64,000 nt of DNA from Oleomonas cavernae (GTDB lineage Bacteria > Pseudomonadota > Alphaproteobacteria > Zavarziniales > Zavarziniaceae), in NCBI RefSeq assembly GCF_003590945.1, contig NZ_QYUK01000011.1, positions 2,818,001 through 2,882,000 on the forward strand, written 5' to 3'. The translations under genes and the position numbers were made by a program. Shown piece after piece: positions 26,777 to 38,282 of this stretch. Under the pieces are notes generated by a model. It did not search any database. It had not been told where the DNA came from and saw only the letters and a list, made by a program, of their open reading frames with translations. The stretch's first letter is position 1. Each line of letters starts with the position of its first letter.

Positions 26777-27983
26777 TCAGGGCTTCAGGTCGTCGCTGAC
26801 CTTGATGCTGGCGCGGATCAGTTCCTCGTACAGGGTGAACTCGTCCACCCGGTCGGCGGGATAGCGGATGGTCAGCCGCAACAGGCCGCCCGGCCGGCCG
26901 TGAACCACCACCGTCTCGCGCTGACCCTTCTCCTCGGCCTGGAGCCACAGATCCTGGTTGCTGCGGCTGTAGCTGCCGACCGAGCGGGTCTTGGTCTCGG
27001 CCTTGAGGCTTTCCCACATCACGTCGAAGGCCTCGTCGCCCAGCGGCGGCTTGACCGTGATCTCCAGGCTGAAGAAGCCGTTGGCCCGAGCAGGCGGCGC
27101 CCGCCCTTGATCTTGGCGCTCTCGGTCAGGACGTTGGCGGGATAGGACAGCGACCAGCCGGCCTTGTCGTCGGCCAGCGTGGTCCAGCCGGCAGCCTGGG
27201 CGGCGGTGTCCGCCTCCTGCTGCAGCAGGGCCCAGTCGGCGGCGGCGACCAGGCCGGTGGGGTGCTTGTCGTGGGCCCGCTGCCAGGCGGCGAAGGCCGT
27301 CCGTTCAGAGGCGGAGGGCGGCGTGCCTTCCTCGGCATATTGATCCGGGATGAACCCGGCCAGGGACAAGGCCTGACCCAGGCCGGCCGCGTCGAGCTTG
27401 CCGGCCAGGCCGAGGTCGACGTCCTCGCCGGCCAGGGCGGTCAACTCGACCGTGCCCTCGACATCGGCCGCCGACCAGGTGTCCGGCGCCACGGTAAAGG
27501 TGCCCTTGACCGCGGCGCCGGCGAAATCGAGCCGCAGGGTCAGGCGGCCGCGATCGCTAAGATCGGCGGTGATCACGCACAGGGTGGCCAGGCAACTGCC
27601 GCTGAGCCCGCCGAAGCCGACCGTCGGCGCCAGCGAGGCGATCCAGCCCGAGACATCGAAGCGGTCGGGCTCGTAGCCCGGCTGGCGGTGCAGATCGACG
27701 ACGAACTCGAGCGGCTGCGGGTAGCGGGCGCCGACCGCCTTGCCGCGCAGCACATCATGCAGGGCCGGCCGCTCGGCGGGCTGGCTCTCCTGGGCCGGGG
27801 CGTGGCGGGATCCTCGACATACCATTCGGCCGGCGCCGCACCGGCGGCGGGTGGCGCCGGCGCATCCGCTGGCAGGACCTGCGCGGTCGGCGCGTCGGCC
27901 GCCGGGGCCGGCGTCGTTTCCTGCGCCAGGGCCGGCACGGCGGTGGCCATCGCCAGGGCAAATAGGTACGGCGCCCGCATCAT
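26777..27983 (-). pseudogene. Secreted hypothetical protein, twice frameshifted
   Basis: From ATG 27983 a signal peptide (YLFALAMATAVPALAQE) and a Pro/Ala-rich segment are read. The frame then shifts at GGGG 27797-27800 (plus strand) into AQESQPAERPALHDVLRG...PLEFVVDLHRQPGYEPDRFDVSGW. It shifts again at CCC 27085-27087 into ANGFFSLEITVKPPLGDEAFDVMWESLK...VSDDLKP. Each shift equals one missing base. Restored, the protein has about 401 residues and is periplasmic. I do not recognise the family. Confidence 0.7.
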
Positions 27984-28052
27984 GGTCTCCCCGTCGCACG
28001 GCTTCGACCCGCAGGCTGCACGCTTGCGCCCGCGGGGGCAAGGGAGGCGGCG

Positions 28053-29396
28053 TCAGCCCTCGACCGGGATGCCCCACAGGTCGTAGTCGCCGGCGGCGTC
28101 GATCCTGACCTTTACCATCTGGCCGGGGCGCAGGCGGCCGGGCGCCTCGATGATGACATTGCCGTCGATCTCGGGCGCATCGGCATAGGAGCGGCAGATG
28201 GCCCCCTCTTCGGCGTCGATCTCGTCGACGATGACATCCATCACCCGGCCGACCTTCTCGTCCAGCTTCTGCGCGCTGATTTCCTGCTGAACTGCCATCA
28301 GGCGGTTCCAGCGCTCGTCCTTCACCGCCTCGGGCACCGCGCCGTCCAGCGCATTGGCCGGGGCACCGTCCACCGGCTCGTAGCGGAAGCAGCCGACCCG
28401 GTCGAGCCGGGCCTCCTTCAGCCAGCCGAGGAGATGCTCGAAATCCTCGTCCGTCTCGCCGGGGAAGCCGACGATGAAGGTGGAGCGGATGGCGATATCG
28501 GGTACGTCGCGGCGCCAGGCGGCCAGGCGGTGCAGCACCTTCTCCTGGTTGGCCGGGCGGCGCATGGCCTTCAGGACCTTGGGCGCCGAATGCTGGAACG
28601 GGATGTCCAGGTAGGGAAGGATCTTGCCTTCCGCCATCAGCGGGATGACGTCGTCGACATGCGGGTAGGGATAGACATAGTGCAGGCGCACCCAGGCGCC
28701 CAGTTCGCCTAAGCTGGCCGCCAGGTCGGTCATGTGGGCGCGGCGGTCGCGGCCGCGCCAGGGCGCTGCGGCATGGCGCACGTCGACACCATAGGCCGAG
28801 GTATCCTGGCTGATTACCAGGAGCTCGCGTACCCCGGCCTTGACCAGGTTTTCCGCCTCGCGCAGCACCTCGTCCACCGGGCGCGAGACCAGGTCGCCGC
28901 GCAACTGCGGGATGATGCAGAAGGAACAGCGATGATTACAGCCCTCCGAGATCTTCAGATAGGCGTAATGCCGGGGGGTGAGCTTAACGCCGGCCGGCGG
29001 CACCAGGTGCAGGAAGGGGTCGTGCCGGGGCGCGACGACCTTGTGCACGGCGGTCATCACCTGCTCGTAGCGATGCGGGCCGGTCACCGCCAGGACGCTG
29101 GGATATTTGTCCATGATCAGGTCCGGCGTCGCCCCCAGGCAGCCGGTGACGATGACCTTGCCGTTCTCGGCCAGGGCCTCGCCGATCGCCTCGAGCGATT
29201 CCGCGCGGGCCGAATCCAGGAAACCGCAAGTATTGACCACGACCACATCCGCCCCGGCATAGTCCGGGCTGATCTCGTAGCCTTCGGCCTTGAGCTGGGT
29301 GACGATCTGTTCGGAATCGACCAGGGCCTTGGGACAGCCCAGGCTGACCAGGCCGACTTTGGGAGCGGCCTTGATCGCGGCGGCGGTAGTGGACAT
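28053..29396 (-). CDS. rimO: Ribosomal protein uS12 methylthiotransferase RimO
   Basis: The start is ATG 29396. The 447-residue enzyme has the MTTase N-terminal domain with cluster cysteines in [16 protein letters not shown] and TGCLGA, the radical-SAM motif CNHRCSFC at about residues 155-162, and a C-terminal TRAM domain. It adds a methylthio group to an aspartate of ribosomal protein S12 using SAM and two 4Fe-4S clusters. It is transcribed leftward as a single gene. Confidence 0.95.
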
Positions 29397-29504: not shown

Positions 29505-30381
29505 CTAGGACACCGCCCCCACCCTTAGCGTGAACTGGCGCACGGCGCCGGGTTCCAGGTTGAAGACACCCGGCTTGTCCTTGAATTCCCCGGTAAAACC
29601 CGCCGGGCTGGCAAAGCCGGACCAGGGCTCGATGCACAGGAATTCGCCCCCGCCCTTGGACCACAGGCCCAGTTGATCGAAGCCCTCCCAGCCGATCCGC
29701 AGGGCGAAGGCCGGCCCGCCGTAGACCAGCCCCCGGCTCGCCACCCGGTCCAGGATGAGTGCATCCGCGTCGAACAAGGCATCATCCAGCGCCAGCAGAT
29801 CGCCCTCGATCGGGCTTTCAACCACCTCGGGCGCCAGCAGGCCGCCTTTCAGGCGGCGGGCCGGGGCCGGCTCGGCCGGTCGAAGCGCAGCCAATGGGCG
29901 GTCTTGGGGGCGTCGAGGTCCAGCGGCCAGCGAAACGCAGGGTGCGCGCCGATACTGGCGGGCAGCGGTTCGTGCCCGCCATTGCGCAGGCGATAGGTCT
30001 GGCTCAGCCCCGCCTGGGCATCCAGCCGGTAGATGACCTCCAGGTTGAAGGCGAAGGGATAGTGTTCCCGGGTCGCCGCGCTGTCGGTCAGGACCGCGCG
30101 GCAGAAGCCTGCCCCCAGTTCCACCCAGGCAAAATCGAGGTCGCGGGCGAAACCGTGCTGCGACAGGGGTAGGATCGCCCGCGGTGGACCAGGGCATCGC
30201 CCGCCAGGCGCCCGACGATGGGAAACAGGTTGGGCGCATGGCGCGGCCATACCGCCCCCGCCTGCCAGATCAGTTCGCCCTGGCCATCGAGGGTGAGCGA
30301 GCACAACTCGGCGCCGCGGGCGGCGATCGTCGCCGTCCACGGCCCGGCGGTGATGATGTGCTTGGCGATGGAATTGTCCAC
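29505..30381 (-). pseudogene. Aldose 1-epimerase family protein, twice frameshifted
   Basis: From GTG 30381 (GGAACG upstream) the first part is IAARGAELCSLTLDGQGELIWQAGAVWPRHAPNLFPIVG. It joins, after one missing base at GGGG 30166-30169, to LSQHGFARDLDFAWVE...ASIGAHPAFRWPL. After another missing base near 29873-29877, it joins to PAPARRLKGGLLAPEVVES...WSGFASPAGFTGEFKDKPGVFNLEPG. The combined sequence of about 292 residues fits the galactose-mutarotase superfamily, YeaD/aldose-epimerase-like branch. His and Glu active-site candidates lie in GAHPAF and the C-terminal EPWSG segment. Confidence 0.8.
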
Positions 30382-30559
30382 GATCGTTCCGGTCAGGGGC
30401 GGGTTGGGCGGTGGATCATGGCCCAGCGCCCAGGCGGATGCCAGGGTGACGGGGCCGGCGCCGCCTGCTACGACCAAAGCCGGTGTTGCCCCGCCCGGCG
30501 TTCGGCCGCTAGGGTCAGCCCAAGCAGAACGGGCATGGCCCGCAGCCAGGAAGAGCGCC

Positions 30560-31300
30560 TTGCCGATCGCATTGATGGCCGACATTCATTCCAACCGCGA
30601 GGCGTTCAGCGCCTGCCTCGCCCATGCCCGGGCCCAGGGCGTCGACCGCTTCGTCTTCCTGGGCGACTACGTCGGCTATGGCGCTGACCCGGAATGGACC
30701 GTCGAGACCCTGGCCGAGCTCATCTCCCGGGGTGCCATCGCCATCCGCGGCAATCATGACGAGGCGGTGTCGCATCACAGCGGCACGATGAACAGCGACG
30801 CCGCCGTTGCCGTCGAATGGACGCGCGGCCGCTTGCCCCCGGAAACCCGCCGCTGGCTCGACACCCTGCCCATGACGGTCGAGGAAGACGACCGCCTCTA
30901 TGTCCACGCCGACGCGTCCCAGCCCGAGCGCTGGCTCTACGTCAGCGACGGCGAAGCCGCCCGCCACAGCCTGGAAGCGACCCACACGCGGCTGACCTTC
31001 TGCGGCCATGTCCATGTCCCCGGCATCTACGGCCTCTCGGGCCTGGGCAAGCTGACGCCCTTCAAGCCGCAGCCCGGCATCGCCGTTCCCCTGCTGGTCC
31101 AGCGGCGCTGGCTGGCGGTGATCGGCTCGGTCGGGCAACCGCGCGACGGCGATCCGGCCGCCTGCTACGCCACCTACGATCCCGACCGTGCCGAGCTTAC
31201 CTGTCACCGCGTCGCCTATGACATCGACCGCACGGCCAGGAAGATCCGCGAGGCCGGCCTGCCGGAAGCGCTGGCGGCACGCCTCTATCGCGGGCGCTGA
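30560..31300 (+). CDS. Calcineurin-like metallophosphoesterase
   Basis: TTG 30560 is chosen as start because AGGAAG lies 7 bp upstream and the sequence then begins LPIALMADIHSN, the usual N-terminus of this family. The 246-residue protein has all metal-binding blocks: ADIHSN, GDYVGYG, GNHDE and GHVHVPG, with His in VHADAS. It should hydrolyse phosphate mono- or diesters or dephosphorylate protein. The next gene, a Ser/Thr kinase, starts 9 bp after its stop, so the two probably form an operon with opposing activities. Confidence 0.88.
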   Translation: MPIALMADIHSNREAFSACLAHARAQGVDRFVFLGDYVGYGADPEWTVETLAELISRGAIAIRGNHDEAVSHHSGTMNSDAAVAVEWTRGRLPPETRRWLDTLPMTVEEDDRLYVHADASQPERWLYVSDGEAARHSLEATHTRLTFCGHVHVPGIYGLSGLGKLTPFKPQPGIAVPLLVQRRWLAVIGSVGQPRDGDPAACYATYDPDRAELTCHRVAYDIDRTARKIREAGLPEALAARLYRGR

Positions 31301-31309
31301 GCGGCGATC

Positions 31310-32706
31310 ATGGGCGAGCCGCGTATCGCCACGGGCAAGGTCATCGACGGTTTTCTGATGGGCGAGCGGATCCACATGGGCGGCATGGCGGTCCTGTGGT
31401 CGGTAACCCGTCCCGATATCGACCTGCCGCTGGCGATGAAAGTGCCCCGGCTGAGCGAAGGCGAAGACCCGGCCGCCATCGTGGGCTTCGAGATGGAGCA
31501 GATGATCCTGCCGCGCCTGAGCGGCCCGCATGTGCCCAGGTTCATCGCCGCCGGCGATTTCGCCGCCCAGCCCCATATCGTCATGGAGCGCATCGCCGGG
31601 CCGGCCCTGCACGCCCGCCTGCCCGACCTGCCGCTGGACCCGGCCGAGGTCGCCGGCATCGGCGCGGCGGTGGCGACCGCGCTGGACGCGCTGCACCGGC
31701 AGCATGTCGTCCACCTGGACGTCAAGCCCTCGAATCTGATGTGGCGCAAGCCCGGCGAGATCGTGCTGATCGATTTCGGCCTGTCGCGACACCTGCAGTT
31801 ACCCGACCTGCTCGACGAGGAATTCAGGCTGCCCTACGGCACCGCCCCCTACATGGCCCCCGAACAGGTCCTGGGCCGCCGCGACGACCCGCGCAGCGAC
31901 CTCTTTGCCCTGGGCGTCTTGCTGTATTTCTTCGTCACCGGCCAGCGCCCCTTCGGCGATCCGCAAGGCTTGAAGGGGCTGAAACGCCGGTTGTGGCGCG
32001 ATCCGGTGCCGCCGCGCGCCAAGAGGCCCGATTGCCCCCCTGGCTGCAGGAGGTGATCCTGCGCTGCCTGGAGGTCGATCCGTCGCGGCGTCATCCGACC
32101 GCGGCGCAACTGGCCTTCGATCTGCGCAATCCCGACCAGGTGGCCCTGACGGCACGGGCGGCGCGGATGCGGCGGGACGGCTTCTGGACCGTGCTGAAAC
32201 GCCGCTTCGATCCCCTCGCCGGGATGGCCGGCGACACCGCCCCGCCCGCCGCGGGCCAGGCGGCGCCCATCGTCGTCGCCGCGATCGACCTGGGCGACAG
32301 CACCGATCTGCTGGCCGATGCCATGCGCGCGATGATCCGGCGGATGATCGATGCCGTTCCCGCCGCCCGCCTCGCCTGCGTCAACATCCTGAAGACACGT
32401 CGCATCGGCCTCGACACGACCCTGGACGACGAGGGCGAGAGCAAGCACGTCCAGCGCCTGGTCGAACTGCGCCACTGGGCGCGGCCCCTGGAACTGCCGG
32501 CCGACAAGATCACCTTCCACGTGCTCGAGGCGACCTCGCCGGCCGCCGCCCTGCTGGACTATGCCCGCGCCAACCAGGTCGATCACATCGTGATGGGCGC
32601 ACGCACCCGTTCGCTGATGCGCAGCCTGCTGGGCAGCGTCTCCGCCGAGGTGGCGGCCGAAGCGCCCTGCACGGTCACTGTCGTGCGCCCGGCCGACCGC
32701 CGCTGA
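31310..32706 (+). pseudogene. Ser/Thr protein kinase fused to a UspA-like domain, frameshifted
   Basis: The kinase half (residues 1 to about 245) shows a Gly-rich loop (GERIHMGGMAVLW), the ATP-binding Lys in LAMKVP, the catalytic loop HLDVKPSNL, LIDFGLSR and APEQ. The frame breaks at about 32030-32034. One missing base there joins RAKRPD to LPPWLQEVILRCLEVDPSRRHPTAAQLAFDL, the kinase C-lobe. A UspA-like domain follows (VVAAIDLGDS...VDHIVMGARTRSLMRSLLGSVSAEV). The restored protein has about 465 residues. It probably phosphorylates Ser/Thr targets and binds a nucleotide in the C-terminal domain. Confidence 0.85.
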
Positions 32707-32717
32707 GGCGGCGCCCG

Positions 32718-33143
32718 TCAGGGTGTCTTCCGGTGGAACACCACAAGCCTGCCGCCGCGCGCGTCCAGCAGCAGCAGCCTGTCGCCATCGAAGGCATAGC
32801 GCGTCGCCTGCTCAAGGCTTTGCAGGAAGGCCGTCTCTTGGGCCATGGCATCCTCGCAGAACATGCGCGTGGCGAAGACCTGATCGAAATCGATCGTCTC
32901 GCCCTCGACCCGCGCCGTGCCGCCATAGCTGTTGCAGCCCGCCTGGCCCGAGACGCGGCCGTCGGCGGCAATCGTCATGGTCGGCGCCCGGCCCTTGACG
33001 ATCGGGCCCAGCGTCATCTCGTCGGCCACCCAGTCGACGCCGGCAAGCCCGGCACCGGCCGGCCGCGCCGCCACATATATCGTACCGCACCCGGCCATTG
33101 CCAGGCCCAGGGCCAGGGCGCTCGCTTGTCCCAACCGCCTCAC
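32718..33143 (-). CDS. META/HslJ-domain lipoprotein
   Basis: GTG 33143 is preceded by GGAAGGAG. The 141-residue protein has a signal peptide ending in the lipobox MAGC and a META domain, including GRVSGQAGCNSYGGTARVEG and MFCEDAMAQETAFLQSL. HslJ-type META proteins sit in the envelope and have been linked to heat or drug resistance. It is convergent with the kinase gene (11 bp apart). Confidence 0.82.
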   Translation of the reverse strand: MRRLGQASALALGLAMAGCGTIYVAARPAGAGLAGVDWVADEMTLGPIVKGRAPTMTIAADGRVSGQAGCNSYGGTARVEGETIDFDQVFATRMFCEDAMAQETAFLQSLEQATRYAFDGDRLLLLDARGGRLVVFHRKTP

Positions 33144-33165: not shown

Positions 33166-33618
33166 CTAACCGCGCCCGCGATAGGGGGCAACCCCCTGGT
33201 CGGGCAGCCACAGCCCCTGGGGCGCCGGGCCGGTCGCATAGAAGACATCAATGGGGATGCCGCCGCGCGGATACCAGTAGCCGCCGATCCTGAGCCACTT
33301 GGGCGCCAGTTCCGCGACCAGCCGCTTGCCGATGCCCACGGTGCAATCCTCGTGGAAGGCACCGTGGTTGCGGAAACTGCCCATGTAGAGTTTCAGCGCC
33401 TTGCTCTCGACCAGCCAGCCGTCGGGCACGTAGTCGATGACCAGATGAGCAAAATCCGGCTGGCCGGTGACTGGGCACAGCGAGGTGAATTCCGGACAGA
33501 CGAAGCGCACCAGATAGTCGGTCTCGGGGTGCGGGTTGGCAATGCGCTCCAGCACCGCCTCGCCTGGCGAGGCCGGCAGATTGGCGTGGTGGCCGAGAAG
33601 GTGCAGGTCGGTGGTCAT
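33166..33618 (-). CDS. queF: preQ0 reductase (NADPH-dependent 7-cyano-7-deazaguanine reductase)
   Basis: The start is ATG 33618. The 150-residue enzyme is the short, single-domain QueF type. [14 protein letters not shown] carries the nucleophilic Cys and catalytic Asp, and [21 protein letters not shown] is the QueF motif that binds NADPH and substrate. It reduces preQ0 to preQ1 in queuosine synthesis. queE, queD and queC lie 3 kb away on the opposite strand. Confidence 0.95.
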
Positions 33619-33684
33619 CGGAAAACAGCCGCGGTTGGAAATCGCGGCCACCCTGCCACAAGCCGCCCCATCAAAGCCATTCGG

Positions 33685-34701
33685 TCAAAGCCACCCAGCC
33701 TTGCGGAAGCGGTAGTAAAGCGCACCGCAGACCCCGGCGATGAGGCCCAGCACGAGGAAATAGCCGTATTTCCAGCCGAGTTCAGGCATGTGCTCGAAAT
33801 TCATGCCGTAGATGCCGGCGATGGCCGTGGGCACCGCCAGTATCCCGGCCCAGGCGGCCAGCCGGCGGGTGATCACGTTCTGCTCGGCCTGGCCGGTCAT
33901 CAGGCTGGCCTCGAAGGCGAAGGCCAGCACCTCGCGCAGGGCGTCGATATCCTCGCGCGCGCGCTTCAGGTGATCGCCGACATCGCGGAACAGGGGCTGC
34001 ATGGCCGCGTCGATGGCGACGACCTCGGCATGCTCGAGGCGGCTGCAGACATCGATCAGCGGCACCGCGGCATTGCGCAGGCGCAGCAGGTCGCGGCGCA
34101 GCAGGTAGAGGCGGTGAACGTCGGTCTGCCCGGGCGGCGTGCCGAAGACCGTGTCCTCGATCCCCTCCACCTCGGCGTGGATCGCGGCCAGCACCGGCTG
34201 GTAATTGTCGGCGATGAAATCGAGGATCGCATAGAGGATGTAGTCCTCGCCATGGGCCAGGACCTTGGGACAGGCTTCGGTATGCTCGCGCACGGCCGAA
34301 TAGGAGACCGAGGCGCCGTGGCGCACCGAGACGACGTAACCCCGGCCCAGGAACAGGTGGGTCTCGCCGAAGGCGATCTGCCCGTCCACCATCTGCGCCG
34401 TGCGCGCGACCACGAAGATCCCGTCGCCATATTGCTCCAGCTTGGGGGCCTGGTGGGCCTTGCCCGCGTCTTCGATCGCCAGGTCGTGCAGGTGGAACTG
34501 GGCCTGGACCCGGCGCAGCAGGGCTTGGCTCGGCTCGAACAGGCCGATCCAGACGACGTGATCGGGGCGGCTCGCCCACTGGCCGGCCTCGTCGATCGCG
34601 ATGTCGTTGATCCGCCGGCCGCCGGCATAGACCCCGGCGGCGACCACACCCGCTTCCAGCCTCGGTTTGGCGCCCGCCGCGGTTTCGGTATTGCCGTCCA
34701 A
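33685..34701 (-). CDS. CorA-family divalent metal transporter
   Basis: The 338-residue protein has the CorA architecture: a cytosolic alpha/beta domain, a long helical stalk (about residues 160-270), then two membrane helices with the signature YGMNFEHMPEL between them. The loop after GMN is of the type that distinguishes CorA from ZntB only weakly, so magnesium, cobalt or zinc is possible. It lies 18 bp downstream of a second, unusual GMN-containing membrane protein on the same strand. Confidence 0.88.
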   Translation of the reverse strand: MDGNTETAAGAKPRLEAGVVAAGVYAGGRRINDIAIDEAGQWASRPDHVVWIGLFEPSQALLRRVQAQFHLHDLAIEDAGKAHQAPKLEQYGDGIFVVARTAQMVDGQIAFGETHLFLGRGYVVSVRHGASVSYSAVREHTEACPKVLAHGEDYILYAILDFIADNYQPVLAAIHAEVEGIEDTVFGTPPGQTDVHRLYLLRRDLLRLRNAAVPLIDVCSRLEHAEVVAIDAAMQPLFRDVGDHLKRAREDIDALREVLAFAFEASLMTGQAEQNVITRRLAAWAGILAVPTAIAGIYGMNFEHMPELGWKYGYFLVLGLIAGVCGALYYRFRKAGWL

Positions 34702-34719: not shown

Positions 34720-36384
34720 TCAACCGGCCTTGTCTTTATTGCGCAAGAGGCCGGCGAATTTGTGGCGGATGGGCAGCCGCTCGTCGGACAGGGATTCCAG
34801 GAAATCCGAGAGTTTGCGCGACTTCATGATGGTGAACAGGATCAGCCAGACCGTGGGCAGGAAGACGATCAGGAAGTAGAAGACCTGCATCCAGATCGGC
34901 TCGTCCGCCGCCGCGATCAGGTTCATGCCCAGGAAGCCGGTGGCCAGCGTGCCGACCAGGCCGAAGATGGTGACCACGGTGAGGCGCAGCACCGAATTCG
35001 ACTGGCGCCGCTGGCTGTCGGAATCGAGGTAGTTGCTCATGTCCTCGACCTCGGCGCGCACCTCCTCGAACAGGCGATCGGTGTCGAGATGGTCGCTGGT
35101 GCGGCGGAACAGGTCGGCGGCGGCCAACTGGTTCGAGACTTCGTGGAACCAGTAGCGGTGCGTGAAGCGCAGGAAGTTCTCGCGGATGCGCCGGATGTCG
35201 CGCTTGAAGCGCTTGATCGAGTCGACATCCGAGACGTCGAGGTCGCTGATCGCCGTCACCAGCCGGTCGGAAAACATGAGCAGGGCCGCCCGGTGCAGGT
35301 GGGCGATCAGGCCGATCAGGAAGTATTGATGGCGAAACAGGCTGAGCCCGCCCACTTCCGGGTCGGTGTAATGGGGATCGGCGACATTGCCGACGATGGT
35401 CACCGAATGGCGCGAGCAGATGATGCGCAGGGGCGTGCCGTCGTGCCCGCCCAACTCGTCCCAGAAGCGGTCGTAGCAGAAGCGGGCCTCGAAATCGGCC
35501 ATGAAGCGGCGCGAGAACGGCAATTGCCCGGGCGGCCCCGGCGGCGAGGCCAGGCCGATGCGCATCCAGTCGCTGCGCGACAGCGACGCGGGATCGTCGA
35601 CCGCGAGATAGGCGAGCAGCGGCATGCGCTGGTATTCGAGCTGGCGGTAGCGGATCGCCCCCGCCTCGCCCGAATGATGCAACACCATGGGGCGCAGCAG
35701 ATAGGCCCAGTGGGCGGCGATATAGGGCGCCTTGTTGGTGCAGACGAATTCCATGTACTGCGCGCGCCGCTCGTAGTCCGACGCGGCGAGCACCGTACCG
35801 TCGTGGCCCAGCCATTCGATCTTGTGGCAGCAGTAGACGGCGCTGCCGTCGGGATTCCACGAGGTCGGATAGGCGCGGCCGAAACGGAACAGCACATCCT
35901 GGACTTCGGCCAGGGGAAGATCGTCGGCATAAAGCTCGATCACCAGGAAGGCGACGTCGATATCGTAGAAGAAATAAAGGTCGACATGGGCGATCTCGAA
36001 GCCGATCACCGGCCCGTCGGCCCGGCCCTGGACCCGGGCCTGCGCCACATCCTTGCGGCGATAGACCTTGATCGGCGAGGCGCCGTAGCCCGCGCGCTTG
36101 GGGTCCGTGGTGCCCTCGCCATAGAGGAAGCGCTGGACATGGGGCATGAAGGCGACGAATTCGACGTAATGGCGTTCCTTGAATTCCTGGCAGTCGGCCG
36201 TGAATTCGTCGGTCAGTTCGGTCCAGGCGCAATTGTCGCCGCCCAGCTTTTCCCAATGGTTCTGGATGGCGCCGCCGCCCGGCAGCGGCATCAGTTGCAC
36301 CGGCCAGATCAGGATCTCGCGAAACTGGCGGGCGATGGGGCTTGTGCTGCCGGGTTCGACCGGCGGAATCATCGGATCGGTCAT
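34720..36384 (-). CDS. Divergent CorA-like protein with large N-terminal domain
   Basis: This 554-residue protein resembles CorA only at its end. A helical segment (DRLFEEVRAEVEDMSNYLDSDS) leads into two membrane helices, with TLATGFLGMNLIAAADEP between them, so the GMN selectivity motif is present. The first 400 residues are longer than in CorA and contain many aromatic residues. A second cytosolic tail of about 40 residues follows the last helix. It probably forms an ion channel-like oligomer. It is co-oriented with the canonical corA gene. Confidence 0.7.
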   Translation of the reverse strand: MTDPMIPPVEPGSTSPIARQFREILIWPVQLMPLPGGGAIQNHWEKLGGDNCAWTELTDEFTADCQEFKERHYVEFVAFMPHVQRFLYGEGTTDPKRAGYGASPIKVYRRKDVAQARVQGRADGPVIGFEIAHVDLYFFYDIDVAFLVIELYADDLPLAEVQDVLFRFGRAYPTSWNPDGSAVYCCHKIEWLGHDGTVLAASDYERRAQYMEFVCTNKAPYIAAHWAYLLRPMVLHHSGEAGAIRYRQLEYQRMPLLAYLAVDDPASLSRSDWMRIGLASPPGPPGQLPFSRRFMADFEARFCYDRFWDELGGHDGTPLRIICSRHSVTIVGNVADPHYTDPEVGGLSLFRHQYFLIGLIAHLHRAALLMFSDRLVTAISDLDVSDVDSIKRFKRDIRRIRENFLRFTHRYWFHEVSNQLAAADLFRRTSDHLDTDRLFEEVRAEVEDMSNYLDSDSQRRQSNSVLRLTVVTIFGLVGTLATGFLGMNLIAAADEPIWMQVFYFLIVFLPTVWLILFTIMKSRKLSDFLESLSDERLPIRHKFAGLLRNKDKAG

Positions 36385-36584
36385 GATCGCCCTTGAACCA
36401 TTTCCCTGACGATCCGCGCCTATTGGCCCAAGATCAAGGGCGTCGCTGCAAGGGGTTCCGGACCTTCTGCGACATCGTGCTGTGCAGCCTTGCTGAAATT
36501 TTGCTGGTCAAAGCCGGCTTTGCGTACATCTTGTGCCGCTTTGCCGGCCTGGGGCCGGCGGTTTGAACGGGATTAGGCTTGGCC

Positions 36585-37220
36585 ATGGGCTATGCCGTGA
36601 AAGAGATCTTCAAGACGCTGCAAGGCGAAGGCGCCCAGGCCGGCCGGGCGGCCGTGTTCTGCCGTTTTGCCGGCTGCAACCTGTGGTCGGGCCGCGAGGC
36701 GGACCGCGCGGACGCGGTCTGCACCTTCTGCGATACCGATTTCGTCGGCATGGACGGCGACGGCGGCGGCCGCTTCGAGACGGCGCAGGACCTGGCCGCG
36801 GCGATCGAGCGGGCCTGGGCGGACGCGTCGCACGAGCGCCGCTATATCGTCTTCACCGGCGGCGAGCCGCTGCTGCAGCTCGACGAAGCGCTGCTGGAGG
36901 CCGTTCATGCCCGCGGCTTTGCCGCCGCGGTCGAGACCAACGGCACGCAGGAAGCGCCCGCGGGGCTGGACTGGGTCTGCGTCAGCCCCAAGGCCGGCGC
37001 GCCCCTGAAGCTCGACCAGGGCGACGAGATGAAGCTGGTCTACCCCCAGGCGGGGCTGGACCCGGCGCAGGTTGCCGACCTGGCCTTCGAGCATTTCTGG
37101 CTCCAGCCCATGGACGGCCCCGACCGCCTCGCCAATACCGCCGCCGCCGTCGCCTATTGCCTGGATCATCCGCGTTGGCGCCTGAGCCTGCAGACGCACA
37201 AGCTTATCGGAATTCCCTGA
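36585..37220 (+). CDS. queE: 7-carboxy-7-deazaguanine synthase
   Basis: The start is ATG 36585; an in-frame TTG at 36579 is less likely. The 211-residue radical-SAM enzyme has the expanded cluster motif CX14CX2C (GCNLWSGREADRADAVCTFC) of the proteobacterial QueE branch, and TGGEPLLQLD. It converts carboxytetrahydropterin to carboxydeazaguanine. The stop overlaps the start of queD (TGATG at 37218-37222). Confidence 0.95.
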   Translation: MGYAVKEIFKTLQGEGAQAGRAAVFCRFAGCNLWSGREADRADAVCTFCDTDFVGMDGDGGGRFETAQDLAAAIERAWADASHERRYIVFTGGEPLLQLDEALLEAVHARGFAAAVETNGTQEAPAGLDWVCVSPKAGAPLKLDQGDEMKLVYPQAGLDPAQVADLAFEHFWLQPMDGPDRLANTAAAVAYCLDHPRWRLSLQTHKLIGIP

Positions 37221-37591
37221 TGTTCGAACTCTCCAAGCAGTTTCGCTTCGAGGCGGCCCACACCCTGCACCGCGCGGTCGATGCCGAGCCCAGCCGGCGC
37301 ATTCACGGCCATTCCTACCGCGCCGAGGTGATCCTGCGCGGCCCGGCCGACCCGGTCACCGGCATGGTGATCGACTTAGGGCTGTTCGAGCGTTCGCTGG
37401 CGATGGTGCGCGATGCCCTGGACCACCGCCTGCTCGACGAATTGCCCGACCTGGGGCCGGCGACCATGGAGAACCTCTCGGCCTGGATCTGGCGCCGGCT
37501 GGCGGCCGATGCCCCGCAACTGGCCCGGGTCACGATCTACCGCGACTCCCTGGGCGATGCCTGCAGTTACTTCGGGCCCGATCATGGCTGA
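37220..37591 (+). CDS. queD: 6-carboxy-5,6,7,8-tetrahydropterin synthase
   Basis: The 123-residue protein has the zinc ligands of QueD: His in FEAAHTLHR and the pair in [12 protein letters not shown]. The catalytic DHRLLDELP and PTxENL-type segment ([12 protein letters not shown]) are present, with Glu in the C-terminal region. It acts on dihydroneopterin triphosphate. It overlaps queE by one base and queC by eight, so all three are translationally coupled. Confidence 0.95.
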
Positions 37592-38282
37592 CGGCGGCGC
37601 CCTGGTGCTGTTTTCCGGCGGCCAGGATTCGGCCACCTGCCTGGCCTGGGCGCTGGACCGCTTCGAGCGGGTGGAGACGGTCGGCTTCGATTACGGCCAG
37701 CGCCACCGGGTCGAACTCGCCTGCCGCGCCACCCTGCGCGCGGGCCTTGGGCGGATGCGGCCCGACTGGGCAGCGAAGCTGGGCGACGACCACACCATCG
37801 GCCTGAGTGCCCTGGGCGAGGTCTCCAACACCGCGCTGACCCGTGACGTCGCCATCGAGATGACCCAGGGTGGCCTGCCCAACACCTTCGTGCCCGGCCG
37901 CAACATCGTCTTCCTGACCTTCGCCGCGGCGCTGGCCTATCGCCGGGGCCTGCGCCACATCGTCGGCGGCATGTGCGAGACCGATTTCTCGGGCTATCCC
38001 GATTGCCGCGACGACACGATCAAGGCCCTGCAAGTGGCCCTGAACTTAGGGATGGACAGCCGCTTCGTGCTGCACACGCCGCTGATGTGGATCGATAAGG
38101 CGCAGACCTGGGCCCTGGCCCGCTCCCTGGGCGGCGACGCGCTGGTCGACCTGATCGTCGAGGACAGCCACACCTGCTACCTGGGCACCCGCGAGATGCG
38201 CCACCCTTGGGGTTACGGCTGCGGCACCTGCCCGGCCTGCCTGCTGCGCGCCGAAGGCTTCCGGCGGTTCAAGTCGGCCTAG
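37584..38282 (+). CDS. queC: 7-cyano-7-deazaguanine (preQ0) synthase
   Basis: ATG 37584 lies inside the end of queD. The 232-residue enzyme starts with the ATP-pyrophosphatase P-loop [15 protein letters not shown]. It has GYPDCRDD and the C-terminal zinc cysteines in CYLGTRE...[17 protein letters not shown]. It makes preQ0 from carboxydeazaguanine, ammonia and ATP. It is the last gene of queEDC and is followed by repeat copy 4. Confidence 0.95.

Follow-up and report, generated by a model that had tools for sequence, protein, structure and literature searches.

A phosphoesterase gene paired with a Ser/Thr kinase–universal stress protein gene in Oleomonas cavernae and distant bacteria, probably acting as one signalling unit

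Layout of the locus and its frame break

The window, by which we mean the whole 64,000-nucleotide stretch of Oleomonas cavernae DNA analysed here, contains a gene for a calcineurin-like phosphoesterase and, directly behind it, coding sequence for a Ser/Thr kinase with a C-terminal universal stress protein (Usp) domain. The features are as follows.

~30548-30555, plus strand: Shine-Dalgarno-like sequence AGGAAGAG, 5′ of the phosphoesterase start, read from the sequence
30560-31300, plus strand: calcineurin-like metallophosphoesterase of the 3rqz type, 246 aa, TTG start (PF12850/PF00149)
31301-31309, plus strand: intergenic gap of 9 nt between the phosphoesterase stop (31300) and the kinase ATG (31310)
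31310-32056, plus strand: Hanks-type Ser/Thr kinase part, 248 aa, ending at a premature stop (PF00069)
32011-32056, plus strand: frame break, from the kinase frame to the frame of the kinase C-lobe and Usp domain (model switch point 32034)
32034-32706, plus strand: remainder of the kinase C-lobe and C-terminal Usp domain (PF00582)

The pair described in the original prediction is real and correctly placed, including the TTG start behind a ribosome-binding site and the 9-bp separation. The first protein is indeed calcineurin-like, with matches to Metallophos_2 (PF12850, E=9.9e-16) and Metallophos (PF00149, E=1.8e-14). The kinase–UspA fusion that had been predicted is present as far as its domains go, a protein kinase (PF00069, E=8.3e-29, residues 24-219, profile positions 10-201 of 263) and a Usp domain (PF00582, E=3.8e-16, ~32275-32688), but not as a single ORF. 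The kinase frame stops at 32056, short of the end of the kinase domain, and what remains of the C-lobe lies, together with the Usp domain, in another frame, open over 32011-32706; the original prediction had run across this break. The window copy thus does not hold both domains in one open frame, as the RefSeq bifunctional protein does. The suggestion that the TTG codon keeps the phosphoesterase low found no support: start codons are ATG in 67 and GTG in 11 of 78 relatives (from the best 80 of 186 loci), and GTG or TTG in 6/6 Zavarzinia genes. A CAGGAA upstream of the phosphoesterase start is also present in five Zavarzinia loci.

The downstream neighbour is a convergent gene for a META-domain protein and the coding sequence upstream is on the minus strand, so the pair stands alone in the window. 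No terminator-like site and no plus-strand promoter-like site was found at 30300-32900, and the window gave no Rfam match. Elsewhere in the source genome there was no second close copy, the only other matches being two kinases of 28-29% identity. Further downstream, a QueF-like protein (33166-33651, minus strand) and, by reading of the sequence, a queE-queD-queC run (36579-38282, plus strand) put two CorA-type transporter genes between queuosine genes: an ordinary CorA (33685-34701) and, adjoining it, a 554-aa CorA relative (34720-36384, minus strand) whose N-terminal part, approximately residues 1-375, has no Pfam match.

We ranked three causes of the frame break: an indel in the assembly, a recent genuine frameshift and, very unlikely, programmed frameshifting. 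In 5/5 Zavarzinia relatives, which are 74-77% identical to the window in the kinase part, kinase and Usp form one ORF of 464-467 aa, and the frame is open through both domains in 80/80 of the best 80 of 186 loci (L105 runs to its contig end, L099 begins at kinase residue 32, and four of the five Zavarzinia relatives are also in this set). That single frame argues strongly against programmed frameshifting as the way in which the two halves are joined in the window, a reading we find scarcely credible even though the break sits at a run of C at ~32034.

In the 400 kb around the window a coding-frame model gave 48 same-strand switches whose outgoing stop was distant, whereas two Zavarzinia relatives, each represented by 200 kb, gave 1 and 6; counting all direct same-strand switches, the source assembly had 77 and the Zavarzinia relatives 33, in 400 kb each. 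These comparisons are between stretches carrying different genes, and the kinase break, with its outgoing stop 20 nt away, is not one of the 48. The 64-kb window holds 12 direct frame switches, and two fall in the reading that adjoins the pair. This is an epimerase-like reading spread over three frames (29505-30585, minus strand, model switches at 29878 and 30180), likened to an aldose epimerase by eye, with two pieces lacking a Pfam match. A second stretch, 27019-28077 on the minus strand, also has a frame-broken appearance (model switch at 27087). The look of these neighbours points to indel errors in the source assembly.

A different count, of homology-based frameshifts, did not clearly separate the genomes, at 5/29 and 1/22 genes for the source assembly and 2/17 and 1/19 between Zavarzinia relatives (6/51 against 3/36 in total). 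This failure to single out the source assembly favours a genuinely broken kinase gene, recently frameshifted, with the phosphoesterase alone functional in the window copy. So do the break itself, a natural instance of kinase loss with the phosphoesterase retained (genome G471, below), and the pN/pS values between the window and Z. aquatilis, which at 0.48 (Usp half) and 0.35 (kinase part) exceed those between two intact Zavarzinia relatives (0.24 and 0.30, respectively). We nevertheless consider a broken gene unlikely, given the excess of switches (48 against 7 per 400 kb), the two direct switches in the adjoining reading and the almost equal similarity of the kinase and Usp halves to Z. aquatilis (76% and 74%), both halves still looking constrained. 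An assembly indel is the most likely cause, and the module is therefore probably intact in the organism.

Occurrence and co-inheritance of the pair

Conservation of the pair outside this genome, the lack of which the original prediction had named as a refutation, was found in three sets of sequences. For the first, contigs were scanned with two peptide patterns; 186 loci encoded a relative and the best 80 were used, a procedure that makes the set lean towards close relatives. By title these loci belong to Rhizobiales, Acetobacteraceae-type genera, Holophagaceae and others, within the Alphaproteobacteria and Acidobacteriota. The phosphoesterase lies directly 5′ of the kinase–Usp gene, on the same strand and in constant order, in 78 of these 80 (the best 80 of 186), with a gap of −1 to 122 nt that is 6 nt or less in 69/78. 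Of the two exceptions, L090 has only ~660 nt of upstream sequence before the contig edge, and in L099 the apparent first codons of a phosphoesterase are joined to the kinase from residue 32. The latter looks like a single deletion that removed the phosphoesterase and the kinase N-terminus, and with them both functions at once.

The other two sets were genome samples searched with profiles from two alignments, with the best few candidates scored per genome. The class sample covered 289 genomes, four of them Zavarzinia (cut-offs E ≤1e-60 for kinase–Usp and E ≤1e-30 for the phosphoesterase). The kinase–Usp gene was found in seven genomes, patchily (4/223 genera), and had an adjoining phosphoesterase in 7/7; the phosphoesterase was found in nine. 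The phylum sample covered 398 genomes and shares three (G000, G001 and G193) with the class sample. At a cut-off of 1e-50 the kinase profile matched 24 genomes, again patchily (14/212 genera), one match (G379) covering the kinase part only. An adjoining phosphoesterase accompanied 22 of the 23 kinase–Usp genes, the exception (G534) having the same N-terminal truncation as L099. Phosphoesterase matches were present in 55 genomes of this sample, 32 of them being weaker relatives.

Pairing at this frequency far exceeds what chance would give. The phosphoesterases and the kinase–Usp proteins also diverge in step, their pairwise distances being strongly correlated (Mantel r 0.908, 0/999 permutations; 77/78 pairs, L105 left out). 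When the loci are divided into 30 kinase groups (76% single linkage), the flanking genes vary from group to group, and the unit is thus the pair alone. Every kinase–Usp gene examined that had undeleted upstream DNA was accompanied by the phosphoesterase. The reverse does not hold, since G471 retains a close phosphoesterase for which neither the surrounding 10 kb nor the profile search yielded a kinase–Usp gene. This pattern is what would be expected if an unopposed kinase were not tolerated. Because the two are retained together in very distant bacteria, they probably act as one signalling unit.

Features of the kinase, the Usp tail and the phosphoesterase

The kinase has the hallmarks of the Hanks type. 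The window sequence contains GGM, MKVP (catalytic Lys), HLDVKPSN (HxDxxxxN), LIDFGL (DFG) and APEQ (APE), and under strict patterns these motifs are kept in 63-76 of 80 relatives (the best 80 of 186). A model of the Z. aquatilis kinase–Usp protein (mean pLDDT 82) shows a PknB-like fold (Z 28.5). The protein thus appears to be an active Ser/Thr kinase of the PknB type, and phosphotransfer would be its expected activity.

The Usp tail is less canonical. In the part available of one study, the ATP motif of Usp proteins is given as G-2X-G-9X-G(S/T) (PMC3673472). The corresponding nucleotide-loop segment of the window is GARTRSLMRSLLGS, and the family consensus is G-A-R-x-x-S-x-x-R-x-L-L-G-S, with a spacing of 8. 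The first Gly and the final Gly-Ser are kept, as is an adenine-side Asp at position 325 (79/81 rows), but the second Gly is present in 2/80 and missing in 78/80 aligned rows, so that the full motif of ATP-binding Usps is not found; in the Z. aquatilis model the loop (residues 431-440) is poorly modelled, with a pLDDT of 40. That same part describes NE1028, which has a spacing of 8, binds AMP and was solved with it, and a partially degenerate Klebsiella Usp (3FDX, 3FH0) with ATP/ADP (PMC3673472); 3FDX and 3FH0 are among the six PDB matches here. Given nucleotide-bound Usps with partial motifs, and the retained Gly, Gly-Ser and Asp, it is plausible on these sequence features that the UspF/G-like tail binds a nucleotide. 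One candidate ligand, c-di-AMP, was set aside: a diadenylate cyclase (PF02457) was found in 0/20 carrier genomes searched and in 11/14 control genomes.

The phosphoesterase was predicted with high confidence (AF2 model, pLDDT 96.1). Its best PDB sequence match is 3rqz (E=2.7e-37), which also heads the structural matches (Z 34.3), ahead of 2gju/1nnw (~28; 1nnw 27.7) and SapH (3qfn, 26.2); thereafter Z falls to ~16-17, with PnkP, calcineurin and PP5. Metal-site residues D8, H10, D36, N65, H116, H150 and H152 are kept in at least 97% of sequences, and the motifs of calcineurin-like metallophosphoesterases recur in nearly all of 79 relatives (DxH 78, GDxVGYG 78, GNHD 78, GHxH 79). By contrast, the signatures of PPP protein phosphatases, GDXHG, GDXXDRG, GNHE and (I/L/V)D(S/T)G as listed in the available part of PMC2887360, occur in 0, 0, 1 and 3 of these 79, respectively, and the enzyme does not qualify as a PPP phosphatase. 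Among relatives to which an activity is assigned SapH is the closest, by its PDB title an asymmetric Ap4A hydrolase and phosphodiesterase. The fold is shared (rmsd 2.6 over 223 residues), at 22% identity and with the QPRDG block unaligned in SapH. The missing PPP signatures, together with an Ap4A hydrolase as nearest assigned relative, make a nucleotide substrate a live rival to a phosphoprotein.

Among the 32 weaker phosphoesterase relatives of the phylum sample, 27 belong to one family (f176). In the eight weaker ORFs that were read (f176, G292, G515 and G657) the enzyme, ~30-36% identical to the window, sits at the C-terminal end of a longer reading frame. In L160, L162, L163 and L177 (f176) and in L164, L165 and L166 (other families) it stands behind a domain of ~260-290 aa, an uncharacterised architecture. 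With its conserved K, D...N and DDD motifs this domain seemed kinase-like to the eye; it gave no Pfam match above cut-offs (7/7 scanned) or NCBIfam match (4/4), a probability of 0.3% against kinase profiles in hhalign, and no PDB chain matching its profile. We therefore rejected the fused relatives as a Rosetta stone for a kinase link.

Possible modes of action and relation to known systems

The explanation we favour, tentatively and at rather less than even confidence, is a co-transcribed phospho-signalling module in which a nucleotide-sensing kinase is paired with a phosphoesterase as eraser. The two genes would form one co-transcribed and co-inherited unit; the UspF/G-like tail would bind an adenine nucleotide and set kinase activity according to the state of the cell; and the phosphoesterase, made first from the shared transcript, would dephosphorylate the kinase or its targets. 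This fits the constant upstream position and co-divergence of the phosphoesterase, the kinase motifs and PknB fold, a kept metal site with calcineurin and PP5 among the next folds, and a Usp loop spaced like that of NE1028. A parallel is offered by a short KdpD, a Ser kinase that c-di-AMP is reported to stimulate, with the Usp domain as the presumed site of action (PMC11018627, part available). The scarcity of PPP signatures, the Ap4A hydrolase title of SapH, the missing second Gly in a poorly modelled Usp loop, the orphan phosphoesterase that persists in G471 and the frame-broken kinase of the window all speak against it.

Several of the same observations suit a module in which the kinase is controlled through its ligand and not by protein dephosphorylation. 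The Usp domain would sense an adenine (di)nucleotide, for instance Ap4A or ATP, and the phosphoesterase would break that nucleotide down. The 3rqz–SapH relationship (the title of 3rqz names no activity), the absence of protein phosphatase signatures and a nucleotide-compatible Usp loop favour this reading. So does the distribution of ApaH, which exceeds its family cut-off in 0/14 carriers of the window's class and in 6/6 other carriers, though its absence may be normal there, as only 1/14 control genomes exceeded the cut-off. With SapH a distant cousin and the proposed Usp ligand itself a candidate, we regard such signal turnover as a close rival, though somewhat less probable than the eraser reading.

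Upstream regions offered a clue to when the phosphoesterase–kinase pair is expressed. A perfect TTGAN6TCAA, a form of the FixK2 box in PMC9104804 and close to the FnrL sites of PMC2908626 (both in the parts available), lies upstream of 14/108 loci, against 0.22 expected from shuffles and ~0.96 from control windows; 13/108 lie within −150 to −40 (0.78 expected). The 108 regions include near-duplicate loci, and nine of the 14 box-bearing loci form one Bradyrhizobium-related group (5/30 groups overall have a box). No perfect FNR/FixK box was found in Zavarzinia, and the best in the window has two mismatches. In the lineages that carry it, the box suggests microoxic control of the pair. Speaking against a FixK role, a term search of the main text of two papers on microoxia in Bradyrhizobium diazoefficiens (PMC9104804, PMC6515984) found no mention of a phosphoesterase. 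Boxes in several lineages could indicate a common expression condition and nothing further, the two proteins both serving stress or energy limitation without acting on each other. We think this improbable, because both the one-to-one retention across phyla amid changing neighbours (30 groups) and the co-divergence exceed what membership of a regulon needs.

A possible output came from the flanks (5-10 kb), where an MFS transporter was found in 6/30 kinase groups and an acetyl-CoA synthetase (55% identity or more) in 3/30, the query loci being included in both counts. The nearest NCBIfam model of the transporter is TIGR00883, below cut-off. Neither gene lies near the pair in the window or in the Zavarzinia loci, and none was found at the same similarity in 800 kb of Zavarzinia DNA, a weak control. 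We keep the acetate-gene link as a lead. Its most far-reaching version is a mobile checkpoint for energy or oxygen limitation, in which the phosphoesterase would destroy the nucleotide read by the Usp domain and the output branch would be uptake and activation of short-chain acids through the MFS metabolite transporter and acetyl-CoA synthetase. This is more speculative still; if true, signal turnover and kinase output would be encoded as a single bicistronic unit.

Parts of the pair have been recorded before. RefSeq names the proteins 'metallophosphoesterase family protein' and 'bifunctional serine/threonine-protein kinase/universal stress protein', and its pairs in Rhodobacter sp. CZR27 and Pseudoroseomonas cervicalis have the same architecture, order and spacing, with kinase–Usp proteins 51 and 60% identical to the Z. 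aquatilis query. These are names without an assigned function, and the window copy differs from them by its frame break. A 2005 study had already noted, in Mesorhizobium loti and Bradyrhizobium japonicum, STYKs that carry a USPA domain; they combine kinase and Usp in one protein, and the part available of that paper does not mention a phosphoesterase neighbour (PMC1262709). To call the pair an unusual unit, as had been done, is therefore too strong. Of the structures sharing the phosphoesterase fold, 3rqz is from Sphaerobacter and SapH is Spr1479 (3qfm/3qfn), at Z 34 and 26. The short KdpD shares with the pair a Usp domain presumed to act as the sensor of a serine kinase. It differs in being a Walker-type atypical kinase (PMC11018627, part available) and in its response to c-di-AMP, whose cyclase was found in none of the 20 carrier genomes searched. 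Operonic STK–PPM (PP2C) pairs likewise set a kinase beside its candidate antagonist, but there the partner is a PPM and here a calcineurin-fold enzyme (PMC6213207, part available). A term search in the available text of two phosphorylation reviews (PMC7020829, PMC6213207) found no universal stress protein, and no paper dealing with the pair or with what it does came up in the open-access collection searched.

For most bacterial Ser/Thr kinases, to our knowledge, neither a signal nor a dedicated antagonist beyond the PP2C class is known. The present unit of two genes, retained one-to-one in groups as far apart as the Alphaproteobacteria and the Acidobacteriota, would supply both in a small and easily expressed form: the kinase carries a candidate nucleotide sensor, and its neighbour is a candidate eraser of an unusual class. 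Whether its substrate is a phosphoprotein or an Ap4A-like nucleotide is a directly testable question.

Two further arrangements were seen around the pair. Fifteen Rhizobium/Agrobacterium-type loci have a sensor kinase upstream that is closest to NahK/ErcS (396.7 bits against a model cut-off of 400, one copy scanned); these loci are related and so provide no independent evidence. On a plasmid of Rhodobacter sp. CZR27 (L152), a set of MFS transporter, adenylate kinase and acs genes is divergent from the pair, and nosR-nosZ lie a few genes downstream of it.
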